DNA from: Glaciecola amylolytica
GTDB taxonomy: Bacteria; Bacteroidota; Bacteroidia; Flavobacteriales_D; Crocinitomicaceae
Assembly: GCA_003856375.1 (NCBI GenBank)
Contig: CP034120.1
Span: 3,219,501-3,283,500, forward strand
DNA length: 64,000 nucleotides
Reading direction: 5' to 3'
Below, in pieces: positions 11,455 through 21,622 of the stretch. A program made the translations under genes and the position numbers. The notes below the pieces were generated by a model. It was not told where the DNA came from and ran no database searches. It saw only the letters and a list, made by a program, of their open reading frames with translations. The first letter of the stretch is position 1; each line of letters begins with the position of its first letter.

Positions 11455-12702
11455 TTATTCATTCAAAACACGTAAATGTTCCCAGAAATCAGGATAGCTC
11501 TTCGCCACCGCTTCCGCATTTTCAACCATTGTTTCCCCATTTGCAAAGCTTCCGGCAATTGCCAAAGACATTGCAATCCTGTGGTCGTGATGCGAAGACA
11601 CAAGCGCTCCTTGCAGGCTTCCCGTTCCATGAATCCGCATTTCATCGTCATCCAGATCAATCTTCAATCCCATTTTTCCGAATTCGGATTGAAGCGTTAA
11701 CCCCCGATTGCTTTCTTTATGTTCTAACCTTCGCACTCCTTTGATGGTCGAGATTCCCCGGCATTTTGAAGCTAAAACTACCAAAGCAGGAAACAAATCC
11801 GGACAATTTTCCGCGTCGAACTCAAAAGGTTGTATGTTTTCGCCATCAATCAAAATGGACTGATTTTCAATCTGAATTTTGCATCCTGCATGCATCAAAG
11901 CATTCAACATCGCCTTGTCGGCCTGCAAACTTCCCATATTTAAACCTGAAACAGAAACCGCATGACCAACCGCCGACGCAGCCAGCCAATAACTGGCCGA
12001 ACTCCAATCTCCTTCAATAGCATAATCCGTGGCTTGATAAGACTGATTTCCCGCAATGCGAAACACATTTTCCCGGCTTTCAATTTCGATCCCAAACTTG
12101 TGAAGTGTTTTGAGCGTCATTTGAATATACGGGCCCGATTTCATGTTTGAAACCGTTAACGAACTCGCCTGTTCACTTCTCGGAAGCGCCATGAGCAAAC
12201 CGGAAATAAACTGAGAACTCAAAGCTCCGTCCACCGTCAGATTGCGTCCCTGAAGAGGTCCGCAAACTTCAATAGGTAAAAATCCGTTTGTTGTACTTAC
12301 TTCACATCCGAATTCAGGAAGTACCTCATCGAAAAAATCCATGGGACGTTTCAACAAACTACCGCTGCCGTTCAAAACCACTTTCTGATCAAAACCTGCA
12401 CTCACACAAGTCAGCAAACGCAATCCCAAACCGGATTCTCCGGTGGAAAGATTCAACGGCTGTGAAATGTTTTTTATTCCCGTAATTTCAGCAACAGCAG
12501 GTGAAATAAAATTCACTTTCGCGCCTAAAGTACCAACAGAATGGAGCATTGCCTTTTCATCATCACTGCTTCCCAAACCGCTCAAACGCGATTTTCCATC
12601 AGCCAGAGCCGCACACAAAATTGCACGCTGCGAATCGCTTTTTGATGCCGGAATCTGAATGTTTCCGGAAAGAACTCCCGGTTGAATATGTTGCTTCATC
12701 AC
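11455..12702 (-). CDS. aroA: 3-phosphoshikimate 1-carboxyvinyltransferase (EPSP synthase) AroA
   Basis: Condenses phosphoenolpyruvate with shikimate 3-phosphate, the sixth shikimate-pathway step. The 415 residues have the family layout: PASKSDSQRAILCAALADGKS at the N-terminus (the substrate-binding Lys-Ser motif), TGESGLGLRLLTCV (replacing the usual GNAGT-type loop), NGSGSLLKRPMD, and RRLEHKESNR plus SSHHDHRIAMSLAIAG near the C-terminus. The GESG in place of GNAG is a divergence seen in Bacteroidota-type enzymes. The start overlaps the stop of the upstream DAHP synthase gene by 4 bp (ATGA), so the two are translationally coupled. Confidence 0.94.
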   Translation of the reverse strand: MMKQHIQPGVLSGNIQIPASKSDSQRAILCAALADGKSRLSGLGSSDDEKAMLHSVGTLGAKVNFISPAVAEITGIKNISQPLNLSTGESGLGLRLLTCVSAGFDQKVVLNGSGSLLKRPMDFFDEVLPEFGCEVSTTNGFLPIEVCGPLQGRNLTVDGALSSQFISGLLMALPRSEQASSLTVSNMKSGPYIQMTLKTLHKFGIEIESRENVFRIAGNQSYQATDYAIEGDWSSASYWLAASAVGHAVSVSGLNMGSLQADKAMLNALMHAGCKIQIENQSILIDGENIQPFEFDAENCPDLFPALVVLASKCRGISTIKGVRRLEHKESNRGLTLQSEFGKMGLKIDLDDDEMRIHGTGSLQGALVSSHHDHRIAMSLAIAGSFANGETMVENAEAVAKSYPDFWEHLRVLNE

Positions 12703-13778
12703 TCCCCTTTTTCTGAAGAATTGTTCATCACCCGAACCTGATGACGAATCGATTCCTGATGAATGGCATCCATTACCTGGCGTACGAAACGGTCACTTAA
12801 ATTGTATTCGAAAGCCCTTCCCAAACGCGCAGAGATCAATTTTCTCCAATGTTCAGGCTGTAGAATTGTAATATTGTGTTCTTTTTTAAACTTTCCCAAA
12901 TCTTCACTCAGCTGCATCCGTGCGGTCAGAATATCAAACAAACGATCATCCAGATCACCGATTTTTTCGCGGATAATGGAAATGTGCTCTGTGTTCAGTT
13001 TTTCGGAATGCTGTGACCTCAAAACCAAACTATCCAGTAAAATCCCCAGATTCTTTGGTGTTAATTGCTGCGCCGCGTCAGACCATGCCAAATCAGGATT
13101 CCGGTGCGTTTCGATGATCAATCCATCAAAATTCAAATCCATTGCTTTTTGTGAAACTTCCAGCAACAAATCCCGGTTTCCGGTAATATGACTCGGATCG
13201 TTGATAATCGGCAAATCCGGCAAGCGTTCATGCAATGCGATCGGAATTTCCCAATTCGGTACGTTTCTGTATTTCGCATGTTTGTACACCGAAAAACCAC
13301 GATGAATTGCTCCCAATTCCGTGATTCCCGATTTTTCAAGCCGTTCAAAAGCACCAATCCACAATTCCAGATCCGGATTGACAGGATTTTTCACCAAAAC
13401 AGGAATTTTCACTCCTTTCAAAGCATCCGCAATTTCCTGCACCGCAAAAGGATTCACCGTTGTGCGCGCACCGATCCACAACACGTCCACTCCGGCTTTC
13501 AAAGCCTGCTCCACATGTTTGGTATTGGCTACTTCAGTGGTTGTGGGAACTCCCAATTCTTTCCCGGCATTGATCAGCCAGCTCAAACCGATTTCCCCAA
13601 CTCCTTCAAAAGAATCCGGGCGCGTACGCGGCTTCCAGATTCCTGCCCGCAACATATCGATATGACACGATTCTTTGATTTGAAGAGCAGTCTCCATGAC
13701 TTGTTCTTCCGTTTCCGCACTGCAAGGTCCCGCTATGATAATCGGTCTTTTTCCGCCTTTTTGGATGATGCTATTCAT
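12699..13778 (-). CDS. Bifunctional DAHP synthase / chorismate mutase (type II)
   Basis: A 359-residue fusion. Residues 1-260 are a class I beta-type 3-deoxy-7-phosphoheptulonate synthase (GPCSAE at 17-22, AGIWKPRTRPDSFEGVG, WIGARTTVNPFAVQ, KNPVNPDL, DPSHITGNRDL). Residues about 265-350 are an AroQ-type chorismate mutase helix bundle (REKIGDLDDRLFDILTARM through AFEYNLSDRFVRQVM). It makes the first compound of the aromatic pathway and rearranges chorismate toward Phe and Tyr; in this fusion family the mutase domain is known to take part in feedback control. It leads the two-gene unit with aroA and is preceded by a leader peptide and terminator at 13820-13928, suggesting attenuation. Confidence 0.94.
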   Translation of the reverse strand: MNSIIQKGGKRPIIIAGPCSAETEEQVMETALQIKESCHIDMLRAGIWKPRTRPDSFEGVGEIGLSWLINAGKELGVPTTTEVANTKHVEQALKAGVDVLWIGARTTVNPFAVQEIADALKGVKIPVLVKNPVNPDLELWIGAFERLEKSGITELGAIHRGFSVYKHAKYRNVPNWEIPIALHERLPDLPIINDPSHITGNRDLLLEVSQKAMDLNFDGLIIETHRNPDLAWSDAAQQLTPKNLGILLDSLVLRSQHSEKLNTEHISIIREKIGDLDDRLFDILTARMQLSEDLGKFKKEHNITILQPEHWRKLISARLGRAFEYNLSDRFVRQVMDAIHQESIRHQVRVMNNSSEKGE

Positions 13779-13814
13779 GATAGAACCAAATTACTTTTTT
13801 TAATTCATATTAAA

Positions 13815-13846
13815 CAAAAAATCCCGCTCCAAAACGAAGCGGGATT
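13815..13846 (-). terminator. Attenuator terminator before DAHP synthase/chorismate mutase
   Basis: On the minus strand AATCCCGCT (13846-13838), a 9-nt loop and AGCGGGATT (13828-13820) form a 9-bp stem followed by six U (13821-13816 region). It lies 40 bp upstream of the DAHP synthase start and 29 bp after the leader-peptide stop. No other minus-strand gene lies upstream, so this terminator can only stop the transcript that leads into the biosynthetic genes, as in attenuation. A competing pairing, CGAAGC (13871-13866) with GCTTCG (13840-13835), would take part of its 5' arm. Confidence 0.75.
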
Positions 13847-13874
13847 GACAACTATTAACAGTTGAGCTTCGAAA

Positions 13875-13928
13875 TTAGCTTATTCCGATGCACCAAATAA
13901 AATTCAAAATCTGTGTTGTATTTTTCAT
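13875..13928 (-). CDS. Putative aromatic leader peptide (17 aa)
   Basis: A small ORF encoding MKNTTQILNFIWCIGIS lies between a TACTTTTG promoter element and the terminator before the DAHP synthase gene. It carries Phe10 and Trp12. The TGG codon (13895-13893) is 22 nt before the CGAAGC segment of the proposed antiterminator, and the stop codon lies only 3 nt before it. A ribosome stalled at Phe/Trp would leave CGAAGC free, while one reaching the stop would cover it and let the terminator form. The aromatic content is modest, so the call rests mainly on the RNA geometry. Confidence 0.6.
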   Translation of the reverse strand: MKNTTQILNFIWCIGIS

Positions 13929-13938
13929 GTTCTACGCT

Positions 13939-13946
13939 CAAAAGTA
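13939..13946 (-). promoter_or_regulatory. Promoter -7 element for the leader/DAHP synthase/aroA unit
   Basis: Reads TACTTTTG on the minus strand, an exact TAnnTTTG match, 11 nt before the leader-peptide ATG. The -33 position has no TTG (ATT instead), so the promoter may be weak or regulated. Confidence 0.55.
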
Positions 13947-14000
13947 GTGTTATTTATTTAACTAAAATAGAAATTAAAAATAATTATTTCACAATTTTTC

Positions 14001-14030
14001 TTGGAAGTATCATTTGTACTCGTATCTTTG
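14001..14030 (+). promoter_or_regulatory. trp operon promoter
   Basis: TTG at 14001-14003 and TATCTTTG at 14023-14030 are separated by 19 bp, matching the Bacteroidota consensus in sequence and spacing. Transcription should start near 14035-14037, 16-18 nt before the trp leader ATG. Confidence 0.8.
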
Positions 14031-14052
14031 CTGTATGATTTTTCAACAAACA

Positions 14053-14100
14053 ATGAAATTTTGGTGGTGTCTGTATCCTAAAAAGGTGGCGGACGCATAA
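14053..14100 (+). CDS. trpL: trp leader peptide (15 aa, two adjacent Trp codons)
   Basis: A 15-codon ORF encodes MKFWWCLYPKKVADA with TGG TGG at codons 4-5. It lies 23 nt downstream of a consensus promoter and ends 21 nt before an intrinsic terminator that precedes trpE. This is the classic layout of ribosome-mediated attenuation, where scarcity of charged tRNA-Trp stalls the ribosome on the Trp codons and prevents termination. An in-frame ATG at 14035 would extend it by six residues but coincides with the expected transcription start, so 14053 is preferred. There is no Shine-Dalgarno sequence, which is usual in this phylum. Confidence 0.85.
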   Translation: MKFWWCLYPKKVADA

Positions 14101-14121
14101 TTCATTATATCTATTTTTTTG

Positions 14122-14154
14122 AACGGCTTGTCACTTTTGGCAAGCCGTTTTTTT
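14122..14154 (+). terminator. trp attenuator terminator
   Basis: AACGGCTTG (14122-14130), a 10-nt loop and CAAGCCGTT (14141-14149) form a perfect 9-bp stem followed by a U run to 14154. It lies between the trp leader peptide and trpE (start 14175). A candidate antiterminator pairs AAAAGGTGGCGG upstream (around 14080-14092) with TTGTCACTTTT at 14128-14138, overlapping the base of the 5' arm and the loop. That pairing has a bulge and several G-U pairs and is only a proposal. Confidence 0.85.
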
Positions 14155-14174
14155 ATTCCCAAAAATCTCATTTT

Positions 14175-15554
14175 ATGCATCTTTACACACAACAATACTC
14201 TTTTAACGCTGACAATTACACTTCTGTCGGGCTTTATTTATCCTTCAAAAACCGTTTTCGATCGCCTTGTTTATTGGAGAGCAACGATTACAACGACCGA
14301 ACTTCCAGCAAGTCTTTCATCGGTTTGAATCCACTGATCGATATTCAGGTTTTTCAATCAGAGATTCGCATTCAGGAAGCTGATTCGGTTCGTTTGATTC
14401 CGATTGAAAATCCTTCGGAAATCACCCAAGAGATTCAGTCTTTACTCAACACCTATTCATTCGAAAATGATTTTGAGAACAACGGATTTCTGAGTTATTT
14501 CAGTTTTGAGTTTGCTCATTTCGAAGAAAATATTCCCACTCCCAAGTCTCAGCTACAACTTCCTTTAGCCCGGTTCACCCTTTTTCAATACCTCATCGTT
14601 TTAGATCATTTTCACGATCAGGGAAGTATTTTGTTCAACGCCTTTGAGCCAAGCTTGAAAAACGAATCGGAATTTCAGGAATTGCTTCGTTTCAATAAAG
14701 CTTCCGATTTGCCTTTTGAACTTGTGAATGAGGAAAAAACAGATGTTTCAGAAGCTGATTTCCTGCAATTGGTTCAACACGCCAAAGCGCACATTTATCG
14801 GGGTGATGTATTTCAACTTGTTGTTTCAAGACCTTTTGAGCAGGCATTTTTTGGAGATGATTTCCAGGTTTACAGACATTTAAGACGACTCAATCCTTCT
14901 CCTTATCTTTTCTATCTCGACATGGAATCTTACCGTTTGTTCGGCTCTTCTCCGGAAACACAAATTCAACTGAAGAACGGAATTGCGGAGATTCATCCCA
15001 TTGCCGGAACGGTTCGAAAAACAGGAGATTCCGATCTGGACAAACAGTTGGTTCAGCAATTGATCGGAGACGAAAAGGAGAATGCGGAACACACCATGTT
15101 GGTGGATTTGGCACGAAACGATTTGAGTAAATTCTGCAGCTCGGTTAAAATCGGGTCGTACAAAGAAGTTCAGCATTTCTCGCATGTGATTCATCTGGTT
15201 TCGAAAGTCACTGCCCAAACGGAAGAAGCTGCACTTTCCTTGTTTAACGGAACCTTTCCCGCCGGAACACTTTCCGGAACGCCCAAACCAAAAGCCCTGG
15301 AATTGCTCAATCACTATGAAAAAACCGAACGCGGGTTTTATGGCGGAGCACTGGGATTCATTCATACCAATGGAAACATGAACCTGGCCATCATTATCCG
15401 CAGCGCTTTGAGCAGTAACAATACACTGAGATACCAGGCCGGAGCAGGAATTGTATTGGATTCCGTTCCTGAAAATGAACTGGAAGAAGTAACCAACAAA
15501 CTCGGCGCAATCCGGAAAGCCATTCACTGCGCCTCAAAACCAAATTCATTATGA
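14175..15554 (+). CDS. trpE: Anthranilate synthase component I TrpE
   Basis: Makes anthranilate from chorismate with ammonia supplied by TrpG; committed step of Trp synthesis. The 459 residues include the LLES motif at 33-36 that in TrpE binds feedback-inhibiting tryptophan. The catalytic domain shows FQLVVSRPFEQ near 210, LFGSSPET, PIAGTVRKTG, DEKENAEHTMLVDLARNDLS and FPAGTLSGTPKPKALELL. Start ATG at 14175 follows the attenuator terminator by 20 bp. It is the first of seven trp genes and its stop overlaps the trpG start by 4 bp. Confidence 0.96.
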   Translation: MHLYTQQYSFNADNYTSVGLYLSFKNRFRSPCLLESNDYNDRTSSKSFIGLNPLIDIQVFQSEIRIQEADSVRLIPIENPSEITQEIQSLLNTYSFENDFENNGFLSYFSFEFAHFEENIPTPKSQLQLPLARFTLFQYLIVLDHFHDQGSILFNAFEPSLKNESEFQELLRFNKASDLPFELVNEEKTDVSEADFLQLVQHAKAHIYRGDVFQLVVSRPFEQAFFGDDFQVYRHLRRLNPSPYLFYLDMESYRLFGSSPETQIQLKNGIAEIHPIAGTVRKTGDSDLDKQLVQQLIGDEKENAEHTMLVDLARNDLSKFCSSVKIGSYKEVQHFSHVIHLVSKVTAQTEEAALSLFNGTFPAGTLSGTPKPKALELLNHYEKTERGFYGGALGFIHTNGNMNLAIIIRSALSSNNTLRYQAGAGIVLDSVPENELEEVTNKLGAIRKAIHCASKPNSL

Positions 15555-16117
15555 AAATTGCAGTCATCGACAACTTCGATTCCTTTGTTTTTAACCTGAT
15601 TCGCTATATCAGGGAAGAACAGCACGAGGTTTTTGTTCAGCGAAACAATCAACTGGATTTCGAAATACTGGAATCCGCCGACGCCATTTTACTTTCTCCC
15701 GGTCCGGGAATTCCCGAAGAAGCGGGTGGTTTGTTGGAAGTCATCGAACGGTTTCACGGAAAAAAACCGATTCTGGGGGTTTGTTTGGGTCATCAGGCAA
15801 TTGCGGTACATTTCGGAGATTCGCTGATTCCTTGTCCGGAACCCATTCACGGAAAATCTTCTCTGATAAGTATTACAACTGCATCCGGGATTTTCGAAAA
15901 TCTTCCGCCAAAAATAGAAGCAGGAAGGTACCACAGCTGGCAAACTCAAATCTCATCTTCCAGCGAATTGGAAGTTACAGCCCGGACGGAAGATTCGGTT
16001 GTGATGGCGCTTCAGCATAAAACAGCTCCCACGGTAGGAGTACAATTTCACCCGGAATCAATTCTGACTCCATTGGGACGAAAAATAATTCAAAACTGGT
16101 TAAACACATACATATGA
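15551..16117 (+). CDS. trpG: Anthranilate synthase component II (glutamine amidotransferase) TrpG
   Basis: Class I glutamine amidotransferase subunit that feeds ammonia to TrpE. 188 residues with the catalytic Cys78 in GVCLGHQ and the His-Glu dyad in VQFHPES near residue 169, plus the oxyanion loop SPGPGIP at 49-55. The length fits the stand-alone TrpG (not fused to TrpD). ATGA overlaps on both sides couple its translation to trpE and trpD. Confidence 0.95.
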   Translation: MKIAVIDNFDSFVFNLIRYIREEQHEVFVQRNNQLDFEILESADAILLSPGPGIPEEAGGLLEVIERFHGKKPILGVCLGHQAIAVHFGDSLIPCPEPIHGKSSLISITTASGIFENLPPKIEAGRYHSWQTQISSSSELEVTARTEDSVVMALQHKTAPTVGVQFHPESILTPLGRKIIQNWLNTYI

Positions 16118-17094
16118 ATTACCTTAAAAAATTAATCGATAACGGAACTCTAAGCCGCGAAGAAGCATATTCATGCATGATTCAAATCGGGAGAAACGAA
16201 ATTTCCGACGCACAAGTTGTTGCCATTACAACCACAATCCAAATGCGCGGTTTGCAACTCCCGGAACTGGAAGGATTTCAGGAAGCTTTACTCGAATTGG
16301 CTAAACCGCTGCATCTCGAAACAGAACAAAGTATTGATTGCTGCGGAACCGGCGGTGATGGAAAAAACACGTTCAATATTTCCACGTTAACGTCTTTTAT
16401 TCTCGCATCCATGGGACACAAAGTTGTGAAACATGGAAATTACGGTGTCAGTTCCTTATGCGGTTCTTCTACCGTTTTGGAATACCTGGGTTATGAATTT
16501 TCGGCAGATCCCAAAGAATTACAGCGTCAGCTTGATCAAAACAACATCTGTTTTCTGCATGCTCCCTTGTTTCATCCGGCCTTGCTCAGAGTAGCTCCTT
16601 TGCGGCAATCCATGGGAATTGCAACTTTGTTCAACGGGCTCGGGCCTTTGGTGAATCCGCATCCTTCCACGCATCAATTAACCGGAACGTATTCCCTCGA
16701 ACTCGCAAAGCAATACCAACATGTTCTGAAATCAAAACGCACAAACTTCACGGTTCTCCACGGGCTTTCCGGATACGATGAACTTACATTTATCGGAGGA
16801 ACACGCGTTTTCAAGGCCAACAGCGACCAGTTGATTCAAAACTCCCCGAATCAATTCGAAATCAAACAGGAAGAAATTTCTGGCGGAGATTCCGTTTCTG
16901 AATCTGCCAGAATCTTCACTGCCATTCTGCGGGGAGAAGGAACAGAAAGTCAGAATACCGTGCTTGCAGGGAATGTAGCTCTTGCCCTGCAAACTTTTGA
17001 TCCGGAACTGGATTTTGAACAAGCTTTTAGCAAAGGATACGAACAAATCCGAAGCGGAAAGTCATTTTACACTTTTAAAAACGTCTGTTTATGA
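16114..17094 (+). CDS. trpD: Anthranilate phosphoribosyltransferase TrpD
   Basis: Joins anthranilate to PRPP. 326 residues with the PRPP-binding glycine-rich loop CGTGGDG (77-83), NIST just after, KHGNYGVSS near 109 (anthranilate site) and FNGLGPLVNP near 173. Length and motifs are standard. It overlaps trpG and trpC by 4 bp each within the trp operon. Confidence 0.95.
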   Translation: MNYLKKLIDNGTLSREEAYSCMIQIGRNEISDAQVVAITTTIQMRGLQLPELEGFQEALLELAKPLHLETEQSIDCCGTGGDGKNTFNISTLTSFILASMGHKVVKHGNYGVSSLCGSSTVLEYLGYEFSADPKELQRQLDQNNICFLHAPLFHPALLRVAPLRQSMGIATLFNGLGPLVNPHPSTHQLTGTYSLELAKQYQHVLKSKRTNFTVLHGLSGYDELTFIGGTRVFKANSDQLIQNSPNQFEIKQEEISGGDSVSESARIFTAILRGEGTESQNTVLAGNVALALQTFDPELDFEQAFSKGYEQIRSGKSFYTFKNVCL

Positions 17095-17864
17095 CACACA
17101 TTTTAGACCAGATCGTTGCGAACAAACGGAATGAAATTCAGCAATTGAAGCAATCGATCACTTGTTCAGATTACGTTCAAAGTCCGCTTTTTAACCGAAC
17201 AGTGATCTCGCTTAGAAAAAAGATCCTGGATCAATTCGGGATTGTTGCGGAGATCAAACGGAAATCTCCCGGTGCAGGTGAAATTCGTCCGGATTTGAAT
17301 CTCGTTTCGCAGCTTGAAATTTACGAACAGCAAGGCGCTTCCGGCATTTCTGTTTTAACCGACCACCGCTATTTTGGCGGTTCAATTGAGGATTTAAAGC
17401 AAATTCGCACCAGGACAAATCTGCCCATTTTGAGAAAAGAATTCATCGTGGATGAATACCAGCTTTTCGAGAGTAAAGCCTCCGGTGCCGATTCTGTTCT
17501 GCTGATTGCTTCGATTCTGGAGAAAGAGCAAGCGCATCAATTGACCATCGTTGCCAAAAGTTTGGGACTCGAGGTATTGTTTGAAATTCATTCGTTTGAA
17601 GAATTGAACAAGCTCAACGACGAAATTGATATTCTGCTCATCAACAATCGAAATCTGAAGACGCAGGAAACACAGGTGGAACATTCATTCGAACTGGCTT
17701 CTTATTTACCGGAACACCTGGTGAAGATTTCTGCCTCCGGAATCACCAGTTCAGATCAGTTAGACCAATTGCAAAACCTCGGATTCAACGGAGCATTGAT
17801 CGGTGAAAGCCTGTTGAAAGGAAACTTCAGATTCGGGTTAACTTCCAACTCATTTGTTTTATGA
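17091..17864 (+). CDS. trpC: Indole-3-glycerol phosphate synthase TrpC
   Basis: Closes the indole ring of CdRP by decarboxylation. 257-residue TIM barrel with EIKRKSPGAGEI at 54-65 (catalytic lysine region), SVLTDHRYFGGS, PILRKEFIVDEYQ with its conserved lysine, and NNRNL followed by SASGI. Monofunctional here, with trpF as a separate gene right after it. Overlaps both neighbours by 4 bp. Confidence 0.95.
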   Translation: MTHILDQIVANKRNEIQQLKQSITCSDYVQSPLFNRTVISLRKKILDQFGIVAEIKRKSPGAGEIRPDLNLVSQLEIYEQQGASGISVLTDHRYFGGSIEDLKQIRTRTNLPILRKEFIVDEYQLFESKASGADSVLLIASILEKEQAHQLTIVAKSLGLEVLFEIHSFEELNKLNDEIDILLINNRNLKTQETQVEHSFELASYLPEHLVKISASGITSSDQLDQLQNLGFNGALIGESLLKGNFRFGLTSNSFVL

Positions 17865-18469
17865 AACTGAAAATTTGCGGCTGCAGCTCTGAACAGTTTT
17901 ACCCCGGTTTGTTCGACCTGAATGAAGTCGATTACTTCGGATTTATTTTTTACTCCGGATCTCCCAGATATGTTGTTCACACTCCTGAAGTTTCCGGAGA
18001 AAAAGTCGGTGTTTTTGTCAATTCTGATTCAGAATTCATCCATCAGAAAATACAAGAAGAAGCGCTGAATGTGATTCAATTTCACGGAAACGAATCTGCG
18101 AAGGAAATCCGGAAAATCAACACTGATGTAACGAAATGGAAAGCTTTAGGCATACAAAACGTGAGTGACTTTGAGGCCTGCAAAGCATATGCAGGAATTG
18201 TAGATGCATTCCTGTTTGACACGAAAAGTCCTCAATTTGGCGGAAGCGGAAAATCTTTTGATTGGGAAATTCTGGATGAATACACAGGAGAAACACCTTT
18301 CTTTTTAAGCGGCGGCATTTCCATCGGACATGTGGAACGCATAAAGAAAATACAACATCCCAAATTGATCGGCATTGATCTGAACAGCCGTTTTGAAATT
18401 GCTCCGAAACAAAAGAACGTTCCCTTAATCGAATCATTCATTAAACAATTGAAACATGAAAACATCTGA
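17861..18469 (+). CDS. trpF: Phosphoribosylanthranilate isomerase TrpF
   Basis: Isomerises phosphoribosylanthranilate to CdRP. 202-residue TIM barrel with the N-terminal KLKICG (catalytic Cys6), [24 protein letters not shown] near 69, the catalytic aspartate in [15 protein letters not shown] and a phosphate-binding FFLSGGI. Overlaps trpC by 4 bp and trpB by 14 bp, the only trp junction that is not the 4-bp ATGA type. Confidence 0.94.
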
Positions 18470-19646
18470 ATTTATTCTTCCGGACGAACTCGGATTCTAC
18501 GGCGAATTCGGAGGTGCTTACATTCCTGAATTGCTCCGTCCTGCCGTTGAAGAATTAAACACTTCCTTCCGGAATTACTGTTTTACAGAAGCATTCAGAA
18601 CGGATTATCTTGACTTACTGAAAAATTATGTCGGAAGGCCGACTCCGTTGTATTTCGCCAGAAATTATTCTGAAAAGTACGGAGCGAAAATTTATTTCAA
18701 ACGGGAAGATTTGTGTCACACCGGAGCTCATAAAATCAACAATACGATCGGTCAGATTTTGCTTGCCAAACACATGGGTAAAACGGAAATTATTGCAGAA
18801 ACCGGAGCCGGACAGCACGGTGTAGCAACTGCAACCGTTTGCGCGCTGATGGGTCTGAATTGCATTGTCTACATGGGCGAAAAAGACATGGAGCGCCAGG
18901 CTCCGAATGTGCAGCGAATGCTTATGCTGGGAGCTGAAGTCCGGCCTGCAACTTGCGGCAGCAAAACCTTGAAAGACGCTACCAATGAAGCCATTCGCCA
19001 TTGGATCAACTTTCCCGATTCCTATTATTTGATCGGCTCTGTGGTTGGTCCTCATCCCTACCCGGAAATGGTAGCTTACTTTCAATCGATCATTTCAGAA
19101 GAAATCCGGAATCAACTGCAGGAAACCGGAGCAGCATCTCCCCAAAAAGTCATTGCATGTGTGGGTGGAGGAAGCAATGCAGCCGGGGCTTTTTATCATT
19201 TTTATTCCGATCGGGAAGTCGAATTAATAGCTGTGGAAGCTGCCGGAGAAGGAATTCATTCCGGGAAAAGTGCGGCAACTTCCGTTCTTGGTTCTCCGGG
19301 CGTACTGCATGGAAGTTTGACCTTATTGATGCAAGATTCCTTTGGTCAGGTTACGGAACCTCACAGCATTTCAGCCGGTTTGGATTATCCCGGAATCGGT
19401 CCTTTGCACGCACATTCCATTGCTACAGGAAGAACCAGATCTTTTTCCATCACAGACGCAGAAGCTCTGGAAGCAGCTTTGGAATGCAGCAGATTGGAAG
19501 GAATTATTCCCGCGCTTGAAAGTGCTCATGCACTGGCAGTTCTTAAAAAACTATCCTTCAAACCAGAAGAAATCATTGTTGTAAACCTTTCCGGAAGAGG
19601 CGACAAAGACATTAACACGTATCAAAACGCATTTCAAAACTTATGA
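18456..19646 (+). CDS. trpB: Tryptophan synthase beta subunit TrpB
   Basis: PLP enzyme that condenses indole with serine. 396 residues with the PLP lysine K93 in [21 protein letters not shown], the phosphate-binding [10 protein letters not shown] near 233 and [11 protein letters not shown] near 295. Classic TrpB1 type and length. Start lies inside the 3' end of trpF, stop overlaps the trpA start by 4 bp, consistent with coupled production of the alpha-beta complex. Confidence 0.97.
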
Positions 19647-20386
19647 ATCCATTCAAAAAAACAGGGAAATCAGTCAGTATTTTTATCACAGCCGGTTATC
19701 CCGAAAAAGAGAGTTTGACCGGTCAAATTTTATTCTTACAGAAACAGGGAATCGACTTTCTGGAAATCGGCATTCCTTTTTCCGACCCCATGGCCGACGG
19801 GCCGGTTATTCAGGAAACGAGTGCTGTTGCGCTGAAAAACGGTATGAACTTAGACCGCGTGTTTGAACAGCTTTCGGAGATAAAAGAACACATCACAATC
19901 CCATTGGTAATTATGAGCTACCTGAATCCGATTCTTCAATTCGGGGTAGATCTTTTTCTCGAAAAGTGCGAATCGGCGGGAATTTCCGGACTGATCATCC
20001 CGGATCTTTCATTTGAATTGGTTCAGAAAAAATACCGGCATTCTTTTGGCTCAGGCAAAATTCCCCTGATCTATTTGATTACTCCTTCTACTTCGGATAC
20101 GAGAATTACTCAAATTGTGGAGGCAAGTTCCAATTCATTTGTTTACCTGGTCGGACAAAATAAAATCACGGGTTCTTCCTATTCCTTATCAGAACATGCG
20201 AATCGTTATTCGGAACTCAAAGAGCTCTGCGATGAAGTTCCTTTGTTTTTAGGCTTTGGGATCTCAAGTTCCGAACAAAAGAAAGCAGCTTTCGGATTTG
20301 CAGACGGAGTTATTGTCGGAACAGCCTATCTACGAGCAATTTCAGAAGAAAACGACAAAGAGTTCATCGAAAAACTCCTGAGTTAA
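19643..20386 (+). CDS. trpA: Tryptophan synthase alpha subunit TrpA
   Basis: Cleaves indole-3-glycerol phosphate to indole, passed to TrpB. 247-residue TIM barrel with the catalytic pair E41 ([11 protein letters not shown]) and D52 (MADGP), the expected 11 residues apart, and GFGISSSEQ for phosphate binding. Last gene of the trp operon. No terminator is obvious between it and the exporter gene 36 bp later, which has its own -7 box. Confidence 0.96.
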
Positions 20387-20422: not shown

Positions 20423-21622
20423 ATGAAAGCGGATACAAAATCGTACGACTCAACCAAAACCGCCTATCCGATTCTTTTTGCAATTGCTTTCGGGCATTTA
20501 CTGAACGATTTGATCCAGGGAGTTTTGCAACCCTTGTTCCCCATGATCAAGGAAACTCAGAATCTGGATTACGGACAAATTGGTTTCATCATGTTCGCAT
20601 TTCAAATTACTTCTTCGCTTTTTCAACCGATTGTAGGTTCCATTACAGACAAATATCCGCAACCTTATTCCTTTAGCTTCGGAATGCTCTTTGCCATCGT
20701 CGGGATTATTGTTTTATCGTATTCTGAGAATTTCACCATGACGCTGACCGCAGCTTGCTGCATCGGTTTGGCATCATCGGTGTTTCATCCGGAAGCTTCC
20801 CGTGTAGCTTATTCAGCTTCAGGAGGAAGAAGAAGTCTTGCTCAGGCTATTTTTCAATTAGGCGGAAACGGTGGGACAGCTCTCGGACCGGTTTTGGTAG
20901 CTTTGTGTGTGATTCCCTTCGGGCAAAAATACACCTTGCTGTTTGTCATTGCCGGAGTAGCCGGATTTGCGATTCTGTTGTTCGTCAGCCGCTGGTACAA
21001 AGGATATTTGCAGGAACACCTGAAAAACACCAAAGCCCGGGTTGTAAGCCATCAGCTTTCCAAGCAGCGAATCTACATGTCGGTTGTTATTCTCCTGGTA
21101 TTGCTTTTTTCCAAATACTTCTATACTGCCAGCATTTCAAGTTACCTGATTTTTTATGCTGAAGAGCGTTTTAATCTGGCAGGAACCCAAGGACAGCTGT
21201 TATTGGCAGTTTATCTTTTTGCAATCACACTTGGTACCGTCATCGGAGGATTGGCAGGTGACAAGTATGGCCGCAGAAACATCATTTGGTTTTCAATTCT
21301 TGGCGCAGCTCCGTTTACTTTACTTCTTCCCTACATGAACCTCACAGGAACCATTGTTTGTCTGGCTTTTGCAGGTTTTATACTCGCTTCCGCGTTTCCT
21401 TCCATTCTCGTGTATGCGCAGGAATTACTTCCGGGAAGAATCGGAATGATTTCGGGAATGTTTTATGGTTTCGCTTTCGGAATGGGTGGAATCGGTGCTG
21501 CTTTCCTGGGAGATTTGATTGATAAACGCGGGATTATTGAAGTCTATCACATTTGTTCCTTCTTACCGTTGATCGGTATTATTGCAGTATTTCTGCCTTC
21601 ATTCCGCGTGAAGAAAACGTGA
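20423..21622 (+). CDS. MFS exporter, fosmidomycin-resistance (Fsr) like
   Basis: A 399-residue 12-helix major facilitator with the Fsr-type opening HLLNDLIQGVLQPLFPMIKE and the loop motif GSITDKYPQP. The second half contains GGLAGDKYGRRN, the usual MFS cytoplasmic motif. Relatives export fosmidomycin or related small molecules, but the natural substrate is unknown. Whether it belongs functionally with the trp operon just upstream (36 bp) is unclear; it could be a passenger on the same transcript. Confidence 0.85.
   Translation: MKADTKSYDSTKTAYPILFAIAFGHLLNDLIQGVLQPLFPMIKETQNLDYGQIGFIMFAFQITSSLFQPIVGSITDKYPQPYSFSFGMLFAIVGIIVLSYSENFTMTLTAACCIGLASSVFHPEASRVAYSASGGRRSLAQAIFQLGGNGGTALGPVLVALCVIPFGQKYTLLFVIAGVAGFAILLFVSRWYKGYLQEHLKNTKARVVSHQLSKQRIYMSVVILLVLLFSKYFYTASISSYLIFYAEERFNLAGTQGQLLLAVYLFAITLGTVIGGLAGDKYGRRNIIWFSILGAAPFTLLLPYMNLTGTIVCLAFAGFILASAFPSILVYAQELLPGRIGMISGMFYGFAFGMGGIGAAFLGDLIDKRGIIEVYHICSFLPLIGIIAVFLPSFRVKKT

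Follow-up and report, generated by a model that had tools for sequence, protein, structure and literature searches.

Does the tryptophan operon of this genome sense its supply of charged tRNA through a translated leader peptide? The window under study (the whole stretch of DNA analysed, 64,000 nucleotides from a single-contig genome of 4.6 Mb) carries a trpE-trpG-trpD-trpC-trpF-trpB-trpA operon at 14175–20386 on the plus strand, and a first-pass annotation had placed a leader with adjacent Trp codons and an intrinsic terminator ahead of trpE. Judging from sequence comparison and modelling, we put the probability that the operon is preceded by a ribosome-mediated transcription attenuator at about 0.9.

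Organization of the trp leader

The genes of the operon were assigned with NCBIfam models, and their adjoining open reading frames (ORFs) overlap. TrpD, TrpB, TrpA and the TrpG subfamily model passed their cut-offs. For TrpE, TrpC and TrpF the best models are those of the same-named families, with scores under cut-off, and the seven top models for TrpE, all under their curated cut-offs, all describe anthranilate synthase component I. An MFS transporter gene (20423–21622, plus strand) begins 36 nt past trpA.

Direct reading of the plus strand confirms the proposed order of promoter, leader ORF with adjacent Trp codons, terminator and trpE. A −33 element (TTG, 14001–14003) lies 19 nt 5′ of a −7 element of the form TAnnTTTG (TATCTTTG, 14023–14030), and the leader ORF that follows contains the conserved codons TGG TGG (14062–14067), the presumed stall site, and closes with TAA (14098–14100). 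The peptide itself had been given as 15 residues, MKFWWCLYPKKVADA, from the ATG at 14053; it is probably 21 residues long, since an in-frame ATG at 14035, 4 nt past the −7 box, yields MIFQQTMKFWWCLYPKKVADA (14035–14100), with a start predicted to fall at RNA +1 and 14053 as an internal alternative. The intrinsic terminator is present (14121–14154, plus strand; arms 14121–14133 and 14138–14150, then a U tract), with a stem of 13 bp, not 9 bp, and a loop of 4.

Conservation of the leader upstream of trpE

The leader ORF and its Trp codons, whose loss in relatives would have spoken against the proposal, are kept: an ORF containing TGG TGG precedes trpE in 37 of 38 loci of the window's family, the window counted, where order-1 random sequence would give 0.84, and in 72 of 79 loci among the 80 best-matching of a contig scan, where the expectation is 2.52. 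For the family set, 150 nt or more of upstream sequence was required; it comprises 38 of 42 loci, leaving out L020, L027 and L043 as too short and L026 as its match begins inside trpE; some genomes contribute two loci, and the counts treat loci as independent of relatedness. The wider set, in which 79 of the 80 loci were long enough, is an uneven sample that contains L046, from the same contig as L008, and L108, which is titled Proteobacteria. The sole family locus lacking the Trp pair, L022, has Trp-Gln-Trp in place of it. What relatives share is an ORF with two or three consecutive Trp codons (WW or WWW); most other codons vary. ORFs with a Trp pair also occur on the opposite strand of 10 of the 38 family regions and of four in the wider set, and in L006 and L008, at least, these are the divergent aro leader described below. 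When all 121 loci were pooled, short ones included, a simple scan without a control found the ORF together with a terminator in 106; among the remaining 15 are short loci as well as L006, in which the terminator is interrupted.

Two loci, L034 and L040, carry two such leader ORFs in tandem before trpE, about 125 nt apart, and possibly represent tandem attenuators. Among 14 genomes of the window's genus, of which two are less than 85% complete, only 7 gave a strong trpE match; by trpE alone, the genomes without a strong match look like tryptophan auxotrophs.

Covariance model and comparison with Rfam

A covariance model was built from 28 family leaders, excluding the window, its nearest relatives (L004 and L005), rows L026, L030, L034 and L040, and L013, truncated by a contig end; the same-genus leaders L007, L008 and L044 were kept. 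The model matches the window at 14020–14156 with 58 bits (E = 7.2e-11), the next best match scoring 17.9 bits. Among loci from the best 80, it matches upstream of trpE on the same strand at E ≤ 0.01 in 74 of 78, missing L103, L108, L110 and L121; in L055, L115 and L120 the match lies more than 1 kb upstream of trpE. It also matches L006 and L022, and six extra matches are either second copies (L093, L112, L022) or lie on the opposite strand (L065, L082, L111). Because it contains no base pairs other than the terminator's, the model leaves the 1:2 and 2:3 pairings unaddressed.

At the gathering threshold no Rfam family matched anywhere in the window, and at E ≤ 10 over 13700–14300 there were 26 sub-threshold matches, most of them probably due to chance. 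The first-pass annotation had implied that a Trp leader would be new to the Bacteroidota; this does not hold, as Rfam has since 2010 contained RF01692 (Bacteroid-trp), described as 'Bacteroidete tryptophan peptide leader RNA'. The RF01692 model scores 21.3 bits on the window (E = 10), under its gathering cut-off of 49 bits, and for this reason we do not assign the window to that family, though the two are linked via relatives. Of 20 hand-picked relatives with WW leaders, 5 pass the cut-off and 15 fall below it, and one that passes, L009 (50.5 bits), is from the window's own family; on these 20 loci, the model seems to under-cover the phylum. RF00513, the E. coli trp leader family (cut-off 41 bits), gave no window match at its gathering threshold and none on the plus strand at E ≤ 10 over 13700–14300. 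A match on the opposite strand at 13814–13901, below cut-off (21.4 bits, E = 0.077), lies over the divergent element.

Alternative pairings of the leader RNA

RNA folding, one of the checks suggested for this locus, indicates that 14036–14160 folds far better than shuffled sequence (z = −4.39; 0 of 200 shuffles as good). With no ribosome in the model, a 1:2 hairpin (14067–14096, plus strand; arms 14067–14074 and 14089–14096) forms together with the terminator, and its stem begins on the last base of the second TGG. When a ribosome occupies either Trp codon and arm 4 is absent, the antiterminator proposed around 14080–14092 and 14128–14138 appears as an 11-bp 2:3 helix (14082–14138, plus strand; arms 14082–14092 and 14128–14138; −11.2 kcal/mol), in which four of the 11 base pairs are G-U. 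Placed on the stop codon, a ribosome would mask approximately 14080–14110, and with it arm 2, and the terminator stays (−19.3). Under the ribosome footprint sizes assumed in these models, the leader geometry fits ribosome-mediated attenuation. Once arm 4 is present, the minimum-energy fold behind a stalled ribosome consists of the terminator and one further helix (−22.1), which beats the antiterminator (−11.2); antitermination would therefore have to be kinetic, depending on the order of folding.

Conserved complementarity was assessed by a swap test, in which each species' arms are paired with the arms of other species and compared with the native combination, relatedness being ignored. This was used instead of column-wise counts of 2:3 pairs because the pairing register shifts between clades, as judged by eye from the alignments. 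For 33 distinct family leaders, the native 2:3 pairing gave −11.41 kcal/mol versus −8.64 kcal/mol when swapped (z = −8.0; 0/2000), with z values of −1.6 and −2.2 in reversed-strand controls; the 1:2 pairing gave z = −8.8 (reversed control −2.9) and the 3:4 pairing z = −13.6, each again with 33 distinct leaders. For the 70 distinct leaders of the wider set, from the best 80 loci, the corresponding values were −6.8 for 2:3 (controls −4.0 and −4.6), a weak −2.9 for 1:2 (control +2.1) and −19.0 for 3:4. Set against its controls, the 2:3 pairing thus stands out clearly within the family, and in the wider set it exceeds what composition explains only moderately. Taken as three mutually exclusive pairings, 1:2, 2:3 and 3:4 show clear conserved complementarity among the family leaders; in the wider set, the part of it that goes beyond composition is weak.

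Other readings of the leader

Of the computed folds the terminator is the most stable, and trp attenuation here is predicted from sequence, so that one might see in this region a constitutive promoter-proximal terminator accompanied by a short ORF, with no sensing of tryptophan. That reading leaves unexplained why relatives keep the Trp codons and why family 1:2 and 2:3 arms fit each other better in native than in swapped combinations, and we consider it very unlikely. Less likely still is a protein-bound (TRAP-like) or riboswitch-type Trp attenuator in which the short ORF is incidental: a terminator with alternative hairpins would, taken alone, suit other attenuators of this kind, whereas the relatives share the WW or WWW ORF while most other codons differ, and no Rfam family reaches its cut-off in the window. 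Trp operons are common targets of T-boxes in Firmicutes, which brings a T-box or another directly tRNA-sensing leader into consideration; yet the window has no T-box match that reaches the gathering threshold, none of the 26 matches at E ≤ 10 over 13700–14300 is a T-box, and we give this reading almost no credence.

Ribosome-mediated attenuation, the reading that we prefer, would proceed as follows. RNA polymerase would start near 14035, and a ribosome would begin the leader at once. With ample charged Trp-tRNA, the ribosome would reach the stop codon at 14098 and cover arm 2, whereupon the terminator (14121–14150) would halt transcription before trpE. With charged Trp-tRNA in short supply, it would stall at TGG TGG (14062–14067) and cover arm 1; arm 2, thus freed, would pair with arm 3 before arm 4 exists, and transcription would go on. 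The start site, the stalling, the termination and the kinetics in this scheme are all predicted steps.

Position of the leader start

The available text of PMC9723704 places TAnnTTTG at −12 to −5 from the start site; by this rule an ATG that follows the box after 4 nt would lie at RNA +1. The portions available of two reports give leaderless mRNAs as 5.5% in F. psychrophilum (PMC9723704) and 5′ UTRs shorter than 10 nt as ~3.7% in B. thetaiotaomicron (PMC7366714). A perfect box with TTG 17–23 nt before it accompanies 48 of 106 WW leaders, and the first in-frame ATG lies 4–8 nt past the box in 34 of these 48 (exactly 4 nt in 10), compared with 660 of 8,274 random upstream points (8%); near-identical loci were left unmerged in these counts. 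Dropping the TTG condition gave 40 of 59 leaders, and all 12 strict-box leaders of the family, six of them from the window's genus, have an in-frame ATG at 4–8 nt. Against a general rule count the gaps of 12–24 nt in 14 of the 48, many of them in Flavobacteriaceae, and the 58 of 106 leaders without a strict box. A looser promoter scan, which accepted at least 5 of 6 box positions and drew in 100 of 106 leaders, was set aside as it had no control and chance matches would be frequent. Strict boxes precede 2 of the window's 48 long ORFs, neither within 8 nt, too few for a baseline.

Within the genus, all seven readable trpE copies (L006 by inspection) have an in-frame ATG exactly 4 nt past the box; in L043, an eighth and more distant copy, the available sequence ends 81 nt upstream of trpE. 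The stretch from this ATG to the Trp codons is always in frame, at 27 or 30 nt, and is identical in L001, L004 and L005 and different elsewhere. Because the 4-nt spacing and the in-frame stretch are common to the genus copies, the start at 14035 (21 residues) is preferred, and the leader probably begins there, at or beside the first RNA base. Such a near-leaderless start would give a concrete, predicted form to the link with Shine-Dalgarno (SD)-poor translation that had been proposed for this locus. No report of leaderless attenuation in Bacteroidota was found in the literature searched, as judged by titles and the openings of abstracts, and a near-leaderless leader start goes beyond the published descriptions that we found.

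A divergent leader upstream of DAHP synthase

On the minus strand, divergent to the trp operon, a second set of leader elements was read. A −7 element (TACTTTTG, 13939–13946) precedes a leader ORF containing Trp and Phe (MKNTTQILNFIWCIGIS, 13875–13928) and a terminator (13820–13846). The genes downstream, also on the minus strand, encode a DAHP synthase fused to chorismate mutase (12699–13778; Pfam PF00793 and PF01817) and AroA, the EPSP synthase (11455–12702; TIGR01356 above cut-off). Counterparts of the leader in relatives include MKNTEFCLNFYWCSCAH, MTIKNTRFFWWWNNLN, MNFSKQNFWWWFKTR, MKNYNTRFFWFWNSLS and similar peptides.

The distribution of this element was followed in DAHP synthase upstream regions, one per genome for 109 of the 113 family genomes that gave a match (G021, G031, G055 and G111 were left out, three of them partial matches, and second copies in some genomes were excluded). 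A region was scored as positive when a terminator lay behind a short ORF in which Trp and a second aromatic residue fell within six residues; this criterion was chosen after examples had been seen and itself requires Trp. By this criterion the divergent Trp leader occurs in 24 of 36 genomes with a trpE match (a partial match only for G069) versus 3 of 73 without (Fisher 2.8e-12, relatedness ignored), and in 0 of 109 reversed-sequence controls; within the genus, five of the six genomes that have trpE carry it and none of the six that lack trpE. An earlier criterion without the Trp requirement (17 of 36 with trpE, 2 of 73 without) was dropped, as some of the ORFs it selected were false and it failed to recover the window; 17 of the 19 ORFs that it picked held Trp. 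In the swap test (25 distinct leaders, relatedness again ignored), z was −5.8 for 2:3 (control −0.8) and −7.8 for 1:2 (control −2.5).

One of the three exceptions without trpE, G081 (L236, G081:C34:1-3700), contains, at approximately 2400–2800 and towards the end of the locus, what by eye is a trpB fragment together with a WWW trp leader that still lies divergent to its DAHP synthase; this genome seems to hold the remnant of a decayed trp operon.

Beyond these genomes, 17 DAHP synthase loci from the 16 matching genomes of 60 across the phylum (16 loci of other families and one, L251, of the same family) were scanned for three aromatics in six residues, with no terminator required; 3 of the 17 gave ORFs, none convincing, and the divergent Trp element may therefore be limited to the window's family. 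No paper linking a leader peptide to DAHP synthase in Bacteroidetes came up in a literature search, and the divergent Trp-containing leader, with what appear to be its own antiterminator and terminator, goes beyond the published descriptions found.

Discussion

The E. coli trp attenuator (trpL, RF00513) has adjacent Trp codons and the 1:2, 2:3 and 3:4 logic also seen in the window. The two differ in promoter type, in the near-leaderless start predicted for the window and in the want of a plus-strand RF00513 match; the E. coli attenuator depends on Trp-tRNA, according to the available text of PMC11802643. Closer in its 5′ end is the trpL attenuator of Sinorhizobium meliloti, whose leaderless RNA begins with the trpL ATG in the account available of PMC7298713, although it belongs to another phylum and its 5′ end is reported there, whereas ours is predicted from promoter spacing.

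Within the Bacteroidota, Weinberg et al. (2010; PMC2864571) include Bacteroid-trp as a table entry, and the available main text does not contain the words leader peptide or tryptophan. The accessible part of PMC6414381 describes Bacteroid-trp before the F. psychrophilum trp operon and likens it to the E. coli leader, and that of PMC9723704 mentions clues to leader-peptide attenuation ahead of operons for amino acids, as well as an unnamed 5′ element upstream of pheA. The window shares with RF01692 its phylum, its downstream trp genes and its Trp leader peptide; it differs in that the window and 15 of the 20 hand-picked relatives score under the 49-bit cut-off. The window would work like Bacteroid-trp and is tied to it through relatives. 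To judge by its sequence, the trp attenuator is real, functional-looking and of the ordinary kind.

For the divergent element, the nearest likeness is the aroR-aroF leader of Corynebacterium glutamicum (PMC11802643, PMC4046766), in the available texts a leader-peptide attenuator before a DAHP synthase gene. That leader contains Phe-Tyr-Phe and answers Phe limitation, whereas the leaders of the window's family contain Trp, mostly with Phe or Tyr nearby.

The window adds evidence for a textbook attenuator before trpE in most of the Bacteroidota loci sampled. A broader proposal, to which we give slightly better than even odds, is that in most of the sampled lineages of this phylum, which otherwise has few leaderless mRNAs, translation of the trp leader starts at the RNA 5′ end or no more than about 4 bases from it, so that the first ribosome would load without a Shine-Dalgarno step and near the polymerase; and that the window's family often has two Trp gauges back to back, one for trpEGDCFBA and one for DAHP synthase-aroA, the second kept or lost with the trp genes. 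What deserves following up is the predicted near-leaderless start, together with the DAHP synthase leader linked to Trp. Promoter spacing, with the start at about the first RNA base, suggests how a tightly timed leader may work in an SD-poor phylum, and the divergent Trp leader suggests that, in genomes that make tryptophan, entry into the aromatic pathway may be tied to Trp supply.
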